Shown in pieces: positions 379 through 5,509 of a stretch of 5,509 nucleotides of DNA. The stretch is taken from assembly GCA_021845155.1 (NCBI GenBank), contig JAKBSB010000104.1, forward strand, positions 1 to 5,509. Direction: 5' to 3'. Below the pieces are notes generated by a model. It had not been told where the DNA came from. It saw only the letters and a list, made by a program, of their open reading frames with translations, and searched no databases. The position numbers were made by a program, and so were the translations under genes. How positions within the stretch are numbered: position 1 is the stretch's first letter; the number at the start of each line of letters is the position of its first letter. This DNA is from Thermoplasmata archaeon. Its GTDB lineage: Archaea; Thermoplasmatota; Thermoplasmata; Thermoplasmatales; Thermoplasmataceae.

Positions 379-1935
379 CTATGCTATCTCCAGAGCAACT
401 ATCTCCCAAATAATGAGAAAAAATACTATGAAATTCATGAGCAGCGCAATATTTGCTATTGTTTTTTCCTCGCCGAGTTTCGCGAATATTCTCCTTCTGG
501 AAGTGATCTTGAGGGTGTCTTTAAAGAATTGCCCCCCGTCAAGAATAAAGAATGGAAGAGCGTTTGTTAATCCAAGGAGAAAGTCCATCCAGAACAGCCA
601 GAACAACATATTGAAAAGTCCCCAGAATATGAATGGATTAAATGGTGTTGAAAACAGGCTTGCAAGTTTTCCAGGAATTGGTGAAAGTCCAGAGAACGGA
701 AGTGCTATTGTGCCCAGGGTTCCATACCATGGGCTTGTAAGCATGGATGTTCCAAGAACCTCTGATCTTATGTCGTTTATTGGAATCAAGCTTATCCCAA
801 GATAACTTATCTCAACCCCTATGAAACTCTGGTTTTTGTAGGAATAACTGTTTGCAGTTGGGTCATACTGGGAATAGTAACTGTACTTTGATCCGGTTAT
901 TAAGGTAAAATTTTTCTCAACGGGACTGCTTAGGTTTGAATTGTAATTCAGTGTGATGACTTTTATGCTGGTATCCGGCCTTATGTTATTCAGAATATTG
1001 CTCAGTTGTGTTGAGTTATACACATACTCTCCATTTAATTTATATAATATACTCCCAGGCGTTATATTACCGTATGCTGGAAACCCTCTAATCGTACCTG
1101 CTACCACCAGACCAGCTGGAACTTTTTGTTGCGCATAAGTGTGGCCATTGAATACCGTTACATCAGTTATGCTTCCAGGTATCAGTGTTGAGTTTTCCAT
1201 TATGCTGTAAAGTTGTGTACCCGAGTAGTTCCCAATGGAAGTTATCTCACTCTGGTCCGGTATTGAACTGTAAGAAGAATTGGCCTGCACACTTTCAACA
1301 TAAAGTCCTGAATGTATGGGTGTTGCCACTGGGGCCAATACAAAAAGAAGTATCAGTAACGCAAATATTGCTATCACAATATTTATGCCTGGTCCGGAAG
1401 CAAATATCCTTCTCCTTATGACTGGATCAGCGTCAGTTACTTCCTTTTCATCAGGTTCAACAAATGCCCCTATGGGAACAATGAAAAAAAGCGCTCCCAC
1501 TGATTTCACAGTTATATTGTGCTTTTTTGCCACAATTCCATGGAAAAATTCGTGAATCACCACTGCGGCAATAAGTGAAACAGTGCCAAATACAATAGGT
1601 ATTGCCGGATTGATTCCCGGTAAAACGAGATATAGAAGGAGGGATGGGGGACTCACGTTCCGCACTACAGTTGCCAGGTAAGAACCATACGCCAGGAATA
1701 CCATAGCAACTACTGAAGAAATGATTACCAGCACTACTGATATCCTGGAGAATGCTATTCCGGGAAACCTTGAAGATACTTTGTCCATTATCTTACGGTT
1801 TTTAACCGCCTTTACCATAATTGCAGGACCCATAAACGAAAAATGCTTTGATTTTCTTATAAATGGGGCTGCAATTACAAGTATGAGACCCCATATAATA
1901 AGGATCAGTAGAACGATGAGAATAGGGTTAGGCAT
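379..1935 (-). CDS. site-2 protease family (M50) intramembrane zinc metalloprotease with PDZ-like insert
   Basis: This 518-residue polytopic membrane protein has the site-2 protease signatures. HEFFH (residues 128-132) supplies two zinc-binding histidines and the catalytic glutamate E129, a GPGIN motif follows at 181-185, and NALPFFILDGG (458-468) supplies the third zinc ligand, D466. Hydrophobic segments lie near 4-25, 64-90, 113-135, 145-160, 184-203, 432-465 and 491-515. Residues about 205-390 form a hydrophilic insert with two PDZ-like stretches, the clearer one near 272-345 containing NITPGSILYKLNGE. This insert holds eight N-x-S/T sequons, so it is probably extracytoplasmic and possibly glycosylated. 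Family members cleave substrate membrane helices inside the bilayer, often to release signalling proteins; the substrate here is unknown. The protein is longer than many prokaryotic members because of the insert. It contains no cysteine. The ATG at 1935 is preferred because a TATA-like box lies about 26 bases upstream; I see no Shine-Dalgarno sequence. No T-rich terminator follows the TAG stop. Confidence 0.93.
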   Translation of the reverse strand: MPNPILIVLLILIIWGLILVIAAPFIRKSKHFSFMGPAIMVKAVKNRKIMDKVSSRFPGIAFSRISVVLVIISSVVAMVFLAYGSYLATVVRNVSPPSLLLYLVLPGINPAIPIVFGTVSLIAAVVIHEFFHGIVAKKHNITVKSVGALFFIVPIGAFVEPDEKEVTDADPVIRRRIFASGPGINIVIAIFALLILLFVLAPVATPIHSGLYVESVQANSSYSSIPDQSEITSIGNYSGTQLYSIMENSTLIPGSITDVTVFNGHTYAQQKVPAGLVVAGTIRGFPAYGNITPGSILYKLNGEYVYNSTQLSNILNNIRPDTSIKVITLNYNSNLSSPVEKNFTLITGSKYSYYSQYDPTANSYSYKNQSFIGVEISYLGISLIPINDIRSEVLGTSMLTSPWYGTLGTIALPFSGLSPIPGKLASLFSTPFNPFIFWGLFNMLFWLFWMDFLLGLTNALPFFILDGGQFFKDTLKITSRRRIFAKLGEEKTIANIALLMNFIVFFLIIWEIVALEIA

Positions 1936-3250: not shown

Positions 3251-3284
3251 GCAAAACTCAGTTTTTGCTTTTTCTTTCTTTTAG
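3250..3284 (+). terminator. hairpin plus T-rich tract ending the fbp transcript
   Basis: AGCAAAA (3250-3256) can pair with TTTTGCT (3263-3269) around a 6-base loop. The T-rich tract TTTTTCTTTCTTTT follows at about 3270-3283. Archaeal termination depends mainly on oligo-T in the non-template strand, which fits here. The tract lies inside the 3' end of the convergent gene and encodes its lysine-rich C-terminus on the other strand. On the minus strand only a short GTTTTGC follows the opposing stop codon, so a terminator for that gene is less clear. Confidence 0.5.
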
Positions 3285-5288
3285 ATAATTTCTGATATCG
3301 TAGAAGAATATATTGTCATAAGGACATGCTTCGAGACACGAGGCTGCCCCAACACATTTTGAGCTTTTAAACTCTCCTGTTTTTATAAATTGTCCGGCAA
3401 GATCGCCCAGTCCAACTTCACAAGCGGAAACACAGTCTTTAGTCGGGCACGTTACGCAGGTATGTGGATCTTTCACTTTGAGTTTGAACAATCCCAATTT
3501 GCTGAATAACCCTACGAATGTCCCAGTGGTGCACCACCCGTATCTTCTGCATGGGCTCATTCCCACGAATGGTATGGATATGAAGAAAATATACCAGAGG
3601 AAATTCCATATAAAAAATGAAAAGTAAACTGAAACATCTATACCGTAAAGGTCGAAATAACCCATCTTTGTCGTGGTAAAATAGGAGAGCAATGAGACAG
3701 CAATCATTATGACCCAAAGAGATGAAATTACGGAAATAACCCACCCTTTAAAATGACTGCCTATATTTTTCCTGCTGAATCTGGATTCGTAATTGAATGA
3801 GATCATGGACTGACCAAATGTTCCACCGTACATTACCGCAGAGGGACACAGTGTGCTGCAGTAGCTCCTTCTTCCGAAAAGTAAGGCCAGCACCGCATAA
3901 AGCGCGTAACTTCCAAGAAGTGCTCCAACCATATATGGATAAAGGGGGGAAAGTGCCCCGACATTGGCCCATAATGGAAGTCTTGAGTGAGTGGCATTCC
4001 CTATGAAATTTGGATATATTATGGTATAGAGGGCAAAAGCAATGAGGGCCATGGAAAGATTTATTCTCTTCTCCTTCCACTGAATATTCTTCATGCGAAG
4101 CACCACAAGAGAGCCCATTTCAATGCCCATTATGGAGAGAAAAATGTAATAGTTTGGAACTGCCCCAAAAACGTAGAAAATATCTACAATGATAGATTTG
4201 GTAGTGAAGACCGTAACACCTCCAAGCATATTTGAAAATATTACAAGATTTTTAAAACCTGTGGAGAAATAAGGGGCATAGGCCTGGAATTCAATTGCTG
4301 CTGCAAGGAACCACTCTGAAATAAATGATGTGATCAGAATAAGAAATACAAACTTCGGATTTTTTATCCATCCTGTTCTTTTTTTATCCGGTTTTGCTGT
4401 TGGGAAATGGATGTGCAGGTAGAGAAGCATCCCCACAACCATAGCTATGCCGTAAATGGACCAACCTACATAAAAAGGTCTATGGTATAGGGTTCCGATA
4501 AATATGGAGGCACTCATGAGAGTGTAAAGCAGGAAAATATTCCTCATCAAGACCATATCTTTTGGGAATAGCGAAGTTCTTCCCCTGGAGATCTTTTCGT
4601 AAAAAATGATCATGAATAATACCATGCTTCCAGTGCCCAGTAATGTTCCCGGGAGAACAAAATTTTCCTGGCCGAGTAAGGTTGGACTGAAAATGCTTTG
4701 AATCATGATGCTCAGGGAGATTAACCGGTTAAGGGAACTCTCAACTGTAATGGCAATTATAACCACCATTTCAGCAACCATAGGGAGAATGAAAAGGTAG
4801 GAATTCAAGCTTGAACTTATCACTGATAACACGTTCGAAAGTAGTGAATAATCTGTGGAAGCGGGATAATAACCGAAACCAATCAGCCTTAGAAATATCC
4901 CCATAGACACTTCATTGAACACAATGAGAAATATTATGGTGGTCGAAACTGAACGGTTGAAACCTATGAATTTCTTTGAAAATGATAGCCAGAGTAGATA
5001 AATCACTGCAATGGACATTTCAAACATCGAGATGTTAAGGGCAATGACCGCATTGAGAAAGGTGACAGGAAATGCCAGGTAATATGTTATGGAATCAAGC
5101 ATGCTCGCCATCATAGACAGAGCTATAACCGCTATTGAAAAATCTCTGTAAGTAAACTCTGGTCGTCTTTTAAGGGAGAAAAATATCAGATATGATATGA
5201 ATGCTGTCATAAATATCTCTGTCAAAACAACAGCAACGATGTTTTCCATCGGGGAGCTAATAGTATCATCAATTAATACAGTTTGCAT
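3258..5288 (-). CDS. polytopic membrane protein with C-terminal NapH/NosR-like polyferredoxin region
   Basis: The longest frame has 676 residues. I do not recognise residues 1-430, which contain about a dozen hydrophobic segments and no cysteine. From about 445 it resembles NapH/NosR-type membrane ferredoxins: a membrane helix, GRRSYCSTLCP (C477, C481), two helices (512-536 and 551-575), then CRRYGWC (C580, C586). Next comes a soluble ferredoxin-like part with CVTCPTKDCVSAC (C611, C614, C619, C623) and CVGAASCLEACP (C645, C651, C655). Two helices between the cysteine pairs would place both on the same, probably cytoplasmic, face. The likely role is membrane-associated electron transfer; the donor and acceptor are unknown. 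In the last motif alanine 648 replaces the usual second cysteine. A start at the ATG at 5249 (663 residues, MENIVAVV) is more likely than 5288: a TATA-like box sits about 26 bases before 5249, and the first 13 residues are hydrophilic and precede the first helix directly. The stop lies 7 bases from the convergent fbp stop. Confidence 0.9.
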   Translation of the reverse strand: MQTVLIDDTISSPMENIVAVVLTEIFMTAFISYLIFFSLKRRPEFTYRDFSIAVIALSMMASMLDSITYYLAFPVTFLNAVIALNISMFEMSIAVIYLLWLSFSKKFIGFNRSVSTTIIFLIVFNEVSMGIFLRLIGFGYYPASTDYSLLSNVLSVISSSLNSYLFILPMVAEMVVIIAITVESSLNRLISLSIMIQSIFSPTLLGQENFVLPGTLLGTGSMVLFMIIFYEKISRGRTSLFPKDMVLMRNIFLLYTLMSASIFIGTLYHRPFYVGWSIYGIAMVVGMLLYLHIHFPTAKPDKKRTGWIKNPKFVFLILITSFISEWFLAAAIEFQAYAPYFSTGFKNLVIFSNMLGGVTVFTTKSIIVDIFYVFGAVPNYYIFLSIMGIEMGSLVVLRMKNIQWKEKRINLSMALIAFALYTIIYPNFIGNATHSRLPLWANVGALSPLYPYMVGALLGSYALYAVLALLFGRRSYCSTLCPSAVMYGGTFGQSMISFNYESRFSRKNIGSHFKGWVISVISSLWVIMIAVSLLSYFTTTKMGYFDLYGIDVSVYFSFFIWNFLWYIFFISIPFVGMSPCRRYGWCTTGTFVGLFSKLGLFKLKVKDPHTCVTCPTKDCVSACEVGLGDLAGQFIKTGEFKSSKCVGAASCLEACPYDNIFFYDIRNYLKERKSKN
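5271..5286 (-). promoter_or_regulatory. putative promoter supporting a downstream start (5249) for the membrane iron-sulfur gene
   Basis: On the minus strand GCAAACTG (5286-5279) precedes TATTAATT (5278-5271), which is centred about 26 bases upstream of the ATG at 5249. This matches the spacing at the other starts in the window and would make the mRNA leaderless from 5249. The only competing TATA-like string for the ATG at 5288 is TTAATTT at 5332-5326, about 41 bases upstream. That would leave a short leader without a recognisable ribosome binding site. Confidence 0.45.
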
Positions 5289-5399: not shown

Positions 5400-5509
5400 A
5401 TGGAATTAGATTATAAGTCCCTACTTGAAATGGATGATGAAGACAGAAAAAAAATGCTTACAAAATTTCTGGTTGAAACCCTGGGAAAAAATGAGGAGGC
5501 TCAGATCAC
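5400..5509 (+). CDS. N-terminal fragment of an unrecognised acidic protein, cut by the window edge
   Basis: An open frame begins at the ATG at 5400 and runs off the right edge after 36 full codons (MELDYKSLLEMDDEDRKKML, then more). An in-frame TAG at 5391-5393 lies three codons upstream, so 5400 is the first possible ATG. A TATA-like box at the usual distance supports this start, and no Shine-Dalgarno sequence is visible. The visible part is rich in Glu, Asp and Lys, probably helical, without a signal peptide or membrane segment, so the protein is likely cytoplasmic. I do not recognise the family. The gene is divergent from the membrane iron-sulfur gene and shares its upstream spacer. Confidence 0.75.
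   Translation, partial: MELDYKSLLEMDDEDRKKMLTKFLVETLGKNEEAQI

Follow-up and report, generated by a model that had tools for sequence, protein, structure and literature searches.

NapH/MauN proteins combine membrane helices carrying a GxR-x-[FY]-C-S-x-x-CP motif with a two-cluster ferredoxin domain that follows them, and NosR/NirI is likewise a membrane polyferredoxin, encoded beside nosZ; NosZ carries CuA, and NosR has an N-terminal flavin-binding domain. In the copper transporters Ctr1/COPT and CcoA, MxxxM pairs in membrane helices serve as Cu(I) ligands, Ctr1/COPT being a trimer with three helices and its MxxxM in helix 2. CcoG/RdxA/FixG and YccM are also membrane polyferredoxins, and PMC7558416 describes CcoG, a bacterial membrane iron-sulfur (Fe-S) protein whose gene adjoins those of cbb3 oxidase, as a cupric reductase. 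Here we analyze a membrane polyferredoxin encoded at positions 3258..5288 (minus strand) of a 5,509-nucleotide stretch of DNA from a Thermoplasmata archaeon (contig JAKBSB010000104.1), hereafter the window, together with its homologs in related archaea.

The window protein, 676 amino acids (aa) long from an ATG start, shares the NapH/MauN architecture in its C-terminal region, but is more than twice the size and carries a 300-residue extra membrane domain. Compared with CcoG, it has no C-terminal Ig-like domain, a different extra domain and a different cysteine pattern, and it differs from NosR in bearing an N-terminal membrane domain rich in conserved methionine and glutamate (Met/Glu). It differs from Ctr1/COPT and CcoA in size and helix number, with approximately 15 helices, four conserved MxxxM pairs and buried glutamates, and a Pfam scan of the window protein at E 1 returned no match to the Ctr family.

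Genes of this kind have been listed before. PMC11349054 reports a polyferredoxin of the NapH superfamily alongside genes for cupredoxin and oxidase in Oxyplasma, and PMC12524180 an 'Fd' gene together with COX15 in the sulfocyanin cluster of Acidiplasma, Ferroplasma and Picrophilus. These published 'Fd' or 'polyferredoxin NapH' genes of sulfocyanin-oxidase clusters very probably belong to the same family, because a Ferroplasma (P0054) and a Picrophilus (P0082) protein are members and the neighbors agree; the Oxyplasma and Acidiplasma genes were likened by published description and neighbors, not by sequence. The accessible text does no more than list these genes, giving neither domain analysis nor function, and that of PMC3750248 makes no mention of ferredoxin. 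Literature searches, with most subscription papers outside their coverage, returned no text combining polyferredoxin and sulfocyanin and, among the matches listed, no title or abstract opening on the function of the polyferredoxin gene. A preliminary description made from the letters of the window had called the protein possibly undescribed, which holds as to function, although the gene itself has probably already been listed in respiratory clusters.

A conserved polyferredoxin family in the Thermoplasmata

Homology searches yielded 106 homologs from 5.8 billion proteins, among the 7998 candidates sharing most words, to which scoring in the homolog and profile searches was confined. The open reading frame (ORF) is real, since these homologs share 28-99% identity with it and most of them cover more than 85% of its length. 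Its start codon is uncertain: a relative with 99% identity (P0001) is 663 aa long, pointing to Met14 (base 5249) as the alternative start, and AlphaFold2 models residues 1-11 with a predicted local distance difference test score (pLDDT) below 50. The relatives carrying an organism name are Thermoplasmata or Thermoplasmatota, including Thermoplasma, Ferroplasma and Picrophilus, and once a 'Euryarchaeota archaeon'. A profile search with 95 aligned rows added two fragments only (P0171, P0172), and no relative was found in a plasmid collection at E 0.01.

A profile search of 150 genomes, all of the same class, located the family in 41, among them genomes of Ferroplasma, Picrophilus, Thermoplasma and Cuniculiplasma types; a wider pattern scan of genome contigs detects close relatives only. 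The alignment used throughout (A2) has 95 rows and leaves aside P0100, a truncated homolog of 605 aa, as well as two partial entries, P0089 and P0099. The preliminary description had proposed a large membrane domain outside known families fused to a NapH-like Fe-S region, and this is borne out: the proteins form a real, conserved archaeal family, a NapH variant whose new membrane domain is absent from Pfam and NCBIfam, and no full-length match to a characterized family was found.

One chromosome (CP009479.1; L005 and L006) encodes two paralogs, each near its own coxB and ctaB, and at one Thermoplasma-type locus (L043:8162-10083, minus strand) the gene consists of two overlapping ORFs, with the break near the boundary between the Met and NapH-like domains; at the other Thermoplasma-type loci it occupies a single ORF.

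A NapH-like region with a rearranged cysteine set

All eleven cysteines of the protein (477, 481, 580, 586, 611, 614, 619, 623, 645, 651 and 655) fall in its last 200 residues, exactly where the preliminary description had placed them, and every one of these columns is cysteine in 95 of 95 rows of the alignment. Equally correct was the remark that the two other complete proteins of the window, an M50 protease and a fructose-1,6-bisphosphate aldolase/phosphatase, contain no cysteine. P0100, outside the alignment, is without C614 and the last cluster, four cysteines in all. Residues 441-676 (3261..3968; this and all protein features below lie on the minus strand) make up the NapH-like region, with three membrane helices and a cytosolic Fe-S domain. 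A membrane part of about 430 residues had been drawn before the cysteines; its multi-helix nature stands, but predicted helices continue to approximately residue 570, so that the first four cysteines lie in loops between or after helices and only those from 611 to 655 lie in a soluble domain.

The first motif, C477-x3-C481-P (3846..3860), corresponds by eye to the first CxxxCP of NapH, with G-R-R-S-Y-C477-S-T-L-C481-P resembling G-K-R-L-F-C-S-W-V-C-P of Escherichia coli NapH, and comes after a membrane helix, as NapH/MauN requires. The second membrane-side motif is rearranged to C580-x5-C586 (3531..3551): hhalign places C586 on the first cysteine of the second CxxxCP, the second cysteine of which is gone, while C580 lies six positions upstream and no CP follows C586. 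Whereas NapH/MauN has two four-cysteine motifs in its ferredoxin domain, the cytosolic domain here has four cysteines in the first ferredoxin-type motif, C611-x2-C614-x4-C619-x3-C623 (3420..3458), and three in the second, C645-x5-C651-x3-C655-P (3324..3356), which is one cysteine short; the protein ends 21 residues past the last of them. Under the customary assignment for ferredoxins, one cluster has four cysteines and the other three, so that the latter could be a [3Fe-4S] cluster or a [4Fe-4S] cluster with another ligand.

Profile comparisons agree with a distant relationship. Pfam detects only ferredoxin motifs in the window protein, below cut-offs, and among the sequences of solved structures the ferredoxin domain alone finds matches. 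The NCBIfam NapH/MauN models (TIGR02163, NF007013) score 33.5 bits across residues 455-660, where the cut-off is 213, and the NapH/MauN profile is matched at E 0.1 by 42 of the 43 members scanned (best E 3e-12). When the C-terminal profile was aligned to single sequences with hhalign, probabilities were 94-96 for NapH, 92 for YccM, 83 for CcoG and 31 for NosR, while of four further proteins three remained below 7 and one reached 43. Because the alignment consists largely of the Fe-S motif, this comparison is not a clean test of descent. Judged by sequence, the C-terminal part is a polyferredoxin distantly akin to NapH, one whose second motif is rearranged and whose last cluster has three cysteines. 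The NapH likeness put forward in the preliminary description is thereby retained, with a cysteine set unlike that of a standard polyferredoxin.

A membrane domain with a conserved Met/Glu belt

AlphaFold2 modeled the whole protein (95 rows) with a pLDDT of 84 and a predicted template modeling score (pTM) of 0.88, and the N-terminal domain alone (90 rows, including stand-alone homologs) with values of 89.9 and 0.88. The model has approximately 15 membrane helices with the N-terminus outside. Lysine and arginine number 0-6 in the inside loops before the C-terminal tail (15) and 0-2 in the outside loops, in general agreement with the positive-inside rule, which places the Fe-S domain in the cytosol. 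Residues 17-300 (4389..5240) form the N-terminal Met/Glu membrane domain, with about nine helices, which also occurs as a separate protein; residues 301-440 (3969..4388) contribute more membrane helices, with E325, M387, E390 and M391, and lie outside the stand-alone form.

Conserved methionines and glutamates recur along this part of the protein as M59-M60-x-x-M63 in helix 2 (5100..5114), E126-x-x-M129 in helix 4 (4902..4913), M170-x-x-E173-M174 in the helix spanning residues 164-180 (4767..4781), M222-x-x-x-M226 (4611..4625), of which M226 is not kept in the stand-alone form, and M387-x-x-E390-M391 (4116..4130). Within residues 17-440 methionine is the best-conserved residue type: of the 21 columns with a Met majority, 14 reach at least 90% conservation (hypergeometric 3e-10), as do five of ten glutamate columns and neither of the two histidine columns. 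These conserved residues also concentrate in the middle of the membrane: 18 of 19 conserved Met/Glu lie at 0.3-0.7 of helix depth, whereas the share among the other residues conserved to this degree in these predicted helices is 9 of 21 (Fisher p 0.0006). Such a mid-membrane arrangement, as far as sequence and model indicate, is more readily reconciled with a soft-metal site than with a quinone site.

No Pfam or NCBIfam match covers residues before 455 of the window protein, among the matches listed, and at E 1 Pfam places no family before residue 465 and returns no NrfD/PsrC quinol domain. Foldseek searches against the PDB stayed at chance level (best E 0.48 for the whole model and 0.17 for the N-domain), and VIA-align gave both the whole model and the N-domain scores usual for unrelated helical proteins. 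The importins, receptors, rhodopsins and ABC transporters that surfaced are chance-level helical fold matches, for which no family relationship is claimed. A blank in the fold search of a predicted model does not prove that the N-domain has a new fold.

The N-domain also exists as a separate protein of approximately 300 residues. In 18 of the 41 family genomes there is also a separate match that extends to about model position 323 only and is without the cysteine part; the corresponding open frames measure 288-409 aa in 17 cases and 837 aa in one (G036). Searching with one stand-alone protein returned 64 proteins, none with a Pfam domain. In an alignment of 16 stand-alone proteins with full-length members, M27, M59, M60, M63, M88, N125, E126, M129, P169, M170, E173, M174, P202 and M222 are kept in all 16, M287 and F166 in 15 and M91 in 14, as against M226 in one and E231 in none. 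Fifteen of the 16 have no cysteine at all and one has a single cysteine. Cysteine-less homologs of the kind that might have undercut the preliminary description thus occur as stand-alone N-domains, while full-length members keep their cysteines throughout, which shows the two parts to be separable modules and not the cysteines to be accidental. Because the Met/Glu core persists in cysteine-less proteins, it is not there to serve the clusters, and most of it belongs to a module able to work without them.

Gene neighborhood and co-occurrence with respiratory genes

Comparison of gene neighborhoods in related archaea, with neighbors identified by eye, by blast to 12 or 17 families or by a few profile scans, revealed frequent clustering with heme-copper oxidase, Rieske/cytochrome b, cupredoxin-like and TatC genes. 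At two loci the polyferredoxin is divergent from a run comprising coxB, coxA, a blue-copper-like gene, ctaB and a CPBP protease; one is on a Thermoplasmata archaeon contig encoding the polyferredoxin at 99% identity (L001), where the run also includes a family we call FAM1, and the other is L005. Given that identity, the window probably derives from the species of L001 or one very near it. In Ferroplasma/Picrophilus-type loci (L045-L047, L049) it is flanked by FAM1 and by a gene that by eye is ctaA-like, coxA lies nearby, and three of these loci (L046, L047, L049) carry a member of the SoxE sulfocyanin family (profile checked for L046). Thermoplasma-type loci (L042, L043, L048, L052) present the order putative cupredoxin (FAM6), FAM1, polyferredoxin, with Rieske, cytochrome b and TatC genes a few genes beyond. 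The full protein is encoded beside or near Rieske/cytochrome b, coxA or tatC at six further loci (L069-L071, L076, L078, L079), in two of which (L069, L076) it directly precedes Rieske and cytochrome b on the same strand. The stand-alone domain adjoins coxB-tatC-Rieske-cytB-coxA-ctaB clusters at L062-L065, ctaB and ctaA-like genes are linked to the polyferredoxin in several loci, and 2-oxoacid:ferredoxin oxidoreductase-like genes lie near it at L005, L044 and L051 (by eye).

Among the genomes that possess the gene in question, it lies within 10 kb of the family in either form in 16 of 35 for COX1, 16 of 36 for COX2, 11 of 33 for Rieske and 14 of 40 for TatC. One or more of the four fall within this distance in 22 of 41 genomes, as compared with 1 of 35 for one ATP-synthase family used as control. 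Co-occurrence points in the same direction: COX1 is above cut-off in 44 of the 150 genomes, 35 of them among the 41 that carry the family and nine among the 109 others (Fisher 1e-19), and bc-type Rieske genes, chosen by eye, are present in 33 of the 41.

Two accompanying families recur at these loci. FAM1 is a membrane protein of 437-538 aa with invariant S-C-Q-C-E and E-N-Y (L001:764-2230, minus strand; L042:6791-8257, plus strand; and nine others), for which scans of two members gave no plausible Pfam or NCBIfam match. It occurs in 18 of the 150 genomes, all among the 41 with the polyferredoxin, and is often near COX1; in five genomes (G126, G132, G137, G147, G152) the polyferredoxin is elsewhere and FAM1 stays within 3 kb of COX1. 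FAM6 (L042:6070-6786, plus strand; L043; L048; L052; L061:4528-5190, minus strand) is apparently a membrane-anchored outside protein with W-Q-C-x3-C-G near its end, its best PDB match being a CoxII domain at E 0.44, and perhaps represents a CuA-like cupredoxin in Thermoplasma-type genomes without heme-copper oxidase.

A DUF929 gene (L045:2946-3725, profile checked; also L046, L047 and L049) is conserved beside the sulfocyanin-oxidase cluster. In divergent lineages the polyferredoxin is adjoined by FAM36 (L053:6828-8222, L054:10493-11788, L059:6695-7999), a membrane protein with a conserved L-G-A-C-C-S-T; a relationship between FAM1 (SCQCE) and FAM36 (ACCST) was considered and set aside, there being no detectable homology. 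Near the second paralog, heme O synthase (ctaB) is fused to an N-terminal membrane domain of approximately 290 residues with an S-C-P-T-C motif and no family match (L006:13457-15208, minus strand).

Possible roles of the family

A respiratory role is probable for the family, and probably one linked to copper. Since its genes are often neighbors of those for respiratory copper enzymes, the polyferredoxin probably helps to supply them with copper or with electrons. We tentatively favor the first option, in which the protein may act as a respiratory copper-maturation factor combining a Met-lined Cu(I) site with a cytosolic Fe-S reductase. A mid-membrane Met/Glu arrangement without conserved histidine is what is expected of a Cu(I) site, and has parallels in Ctr1, CcoA and the entry site of Cu-ATPases; together with the parallel to CcoG, which a cytosolic Fe-S domain encoded next to oxidase genes brings to mind, this is what favors copper maturation. 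Also in its favor are the putative cupredoxin and FAM1 that precede the polyferredoxin in the four Thermoplasma-type genomes without COX1 and COX2, and the scarcity of known copper loaders described below. The cytosolic clusters would take electrons from a donor, reduced ferredoxin or quinol, and hold copper as Cu(I), which the Met/Glu belt would bind and pass towards the outer face; recipients would be the CuA subunit of a heme-copper oxidase, its CuB site or a cupredoxin such as sulfocyanin. Where the membrane domain stands alone, reduction would be done elsewhere. We infer metal binding, copper as the metal, reduction and the direction of transfer from what is observed: the sequence pattern, depth in predicted helices, the stand-alone form, gene neighborhood and co-occurrence. 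Two stronger versions, taken together, seem unlikely: that the protein is a novel type of copper-loading machine, which joins a Met/Glu-lined Cu(I) conduit to an Fe-S cupric reductase and replaces Cox11/CtaG/SCO in acidophilic archaea, with the conduit also existing separately; and, bolder, that bound copper serves as a redox relay connecting the Fe-S clusters in the cytosol, across the membrane, with cupredoxins outside.

Several results weigh against copper maturation. The nearest profile is NapH and not CcoG, whose profile is not among the matches listed (best 25 of 30 families for the window protein, best 25 of 65 for 43 members). The four conserved MxxxM pairs are, by spacing alone, barely beyond chance (p 0.04), for which reason the case is not rested on spacing. 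Eleven stretches of 16-19 kb were compared by tblastn with 12 respiratory families, and ten of them (L050, L051, L053-L060) contain none, L061 being the one that does; blastp found no respiratory families at L066-L068, L075, L077, L080 and L081, some of which are short contigs. In 19 of the 41 genomes neither COX1, COX2, Rieske nor TatC lies within 10 kb, although one of these (G060) has Rieske and cytochrome b beside the polyferredoxin by blast, and linkage to Rieske/cytochrome b and TatC involves genes that are not copper genes. The Fisher value for COX1 is not corrected for shared ancestry, and the six family genomes without COX1 comprise four Thermoplasma-type genomes, which have neither COX1 nor COX2, along with G045 and G060, the latter with COX2. 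The cupredoxin reading of FAM6 is motif-based, two scanned members giving no plausible Pfam match. Finally, the scarcity of known copper loaders is not specific to the family. Among 50 genomes checked (the 41 with the family and nine with COX1 but without it), Caa3_CtaG and Cox11 are each found in none, and SCO1/SenC is above cut-off in three with a weak match in 11 more; since Cox11 and Caa3_CtaG are equally missing from the nine family-less genomes, and Sulfolobus acidocaldarius, used as control, gave no SCO or Cox11 match, this vacancy is not peculiar to genomes with the polyferredoxin.

The NapH resemblance and the Rieske/cytochrome b neighbors bring a NapH-kind respiratory electron-transfer module close behind copper maturation as a serious, if somewhat less likely, explanation. 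Its Fe-S domain would link a cytosolic donor, such as the ferredoxin of a 2-oxoacid:ferredoxin oxidoreductase, or the quinone pool with the chain of Rieske/cytochrome b, cupredoxin and oxidase, the membrane domain providing a quinone site or docking surface. The profile matches across nearly all members scanned, the NapH-like first motif, the placement directly upstream of Rieske and cytochrome b and the oxidoreductase-like genes nearby are all consistent with this, but the NapH score is far below its cut-off, no histidine is conserved, the stand-alone domain keeps the Met/Glu core without the Fe-S part, and a Rieske/cytochrome b complex would already perform quinol-to-cupredoxin transfer in most family genomes. 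An assembly or scaffold factor for a Rieske/cytochrome b/oxidase supercomplex, handling heme, Fe-S or another metal such as Fe2+ instead of copper, would account for linkage to TatC and Rieske almost equal to that of the COX genes and for the ctaB and ctaA-like neighbors, and methionine together with acidic residues is able to coordinate Fe2+ or Mn2+ as well, Nramp being an example; a site dominated by methionine, with neither histidine nor aspartate conserved, is nevertheless unusual for heme or hard metals, COX1 and COX2 are the commonest near neighbors (16 genomes each), and we regard this role as improbable. Least likely is a membrane transporter for general copper or iron homeostasis that lies near respiratory genes through shared regulation only. 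The large helical domain with its buried Met/Glu belt would suit such a transporter, and acid mine waters are metal-rich, but the family was not found in 109 of the 150 genomes, 100 of which have no COX1 above cut-off; it follows the oxidase more closely than would be expected of a general homeostasis gene.

How archaea load copper into heme-copper oxidases and cupredoxins is, to our knowledge, an open question, and under the copper-maturation reading a candidate with a defined belt of residues makes it testable. Should the protein prove to be an electron-transfer module, it may fill a gap in the respiratory chain of these archaea, which include iron oxidizers of bioleaching. Whichever reading holds, the N-terminal domain belongs to no Pfam or NCBIfam family, and its fold matches stay at chance level.

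Adjacent genes and other observations

The neighbors of the polyferredoxin in the window are an archaeal fructose-1,6-bisphosphate aldolase/phosphatase (NF041126, above its cut-off) and an M50 protease (379-1935, minus strand; Pfam match). The Pfam match of the protease spans residues 118-499, while the profile has only 221 positions, indicating a large insert, and the protein also weakly matches a daptide intramembrane metalloprotease model. Two ORFs near the second paralog (L006:1198-2501, minus strand) have by eye the look of a group II intron-type reverse transcriptase. A divergent small ORF begins on the plus strand of the window (approximately 5400-5509), some 111 bases from the start of the polyferredoxin, and is complete in L001 (6168-6545), where it encodes an acidic protein of 125 aa.

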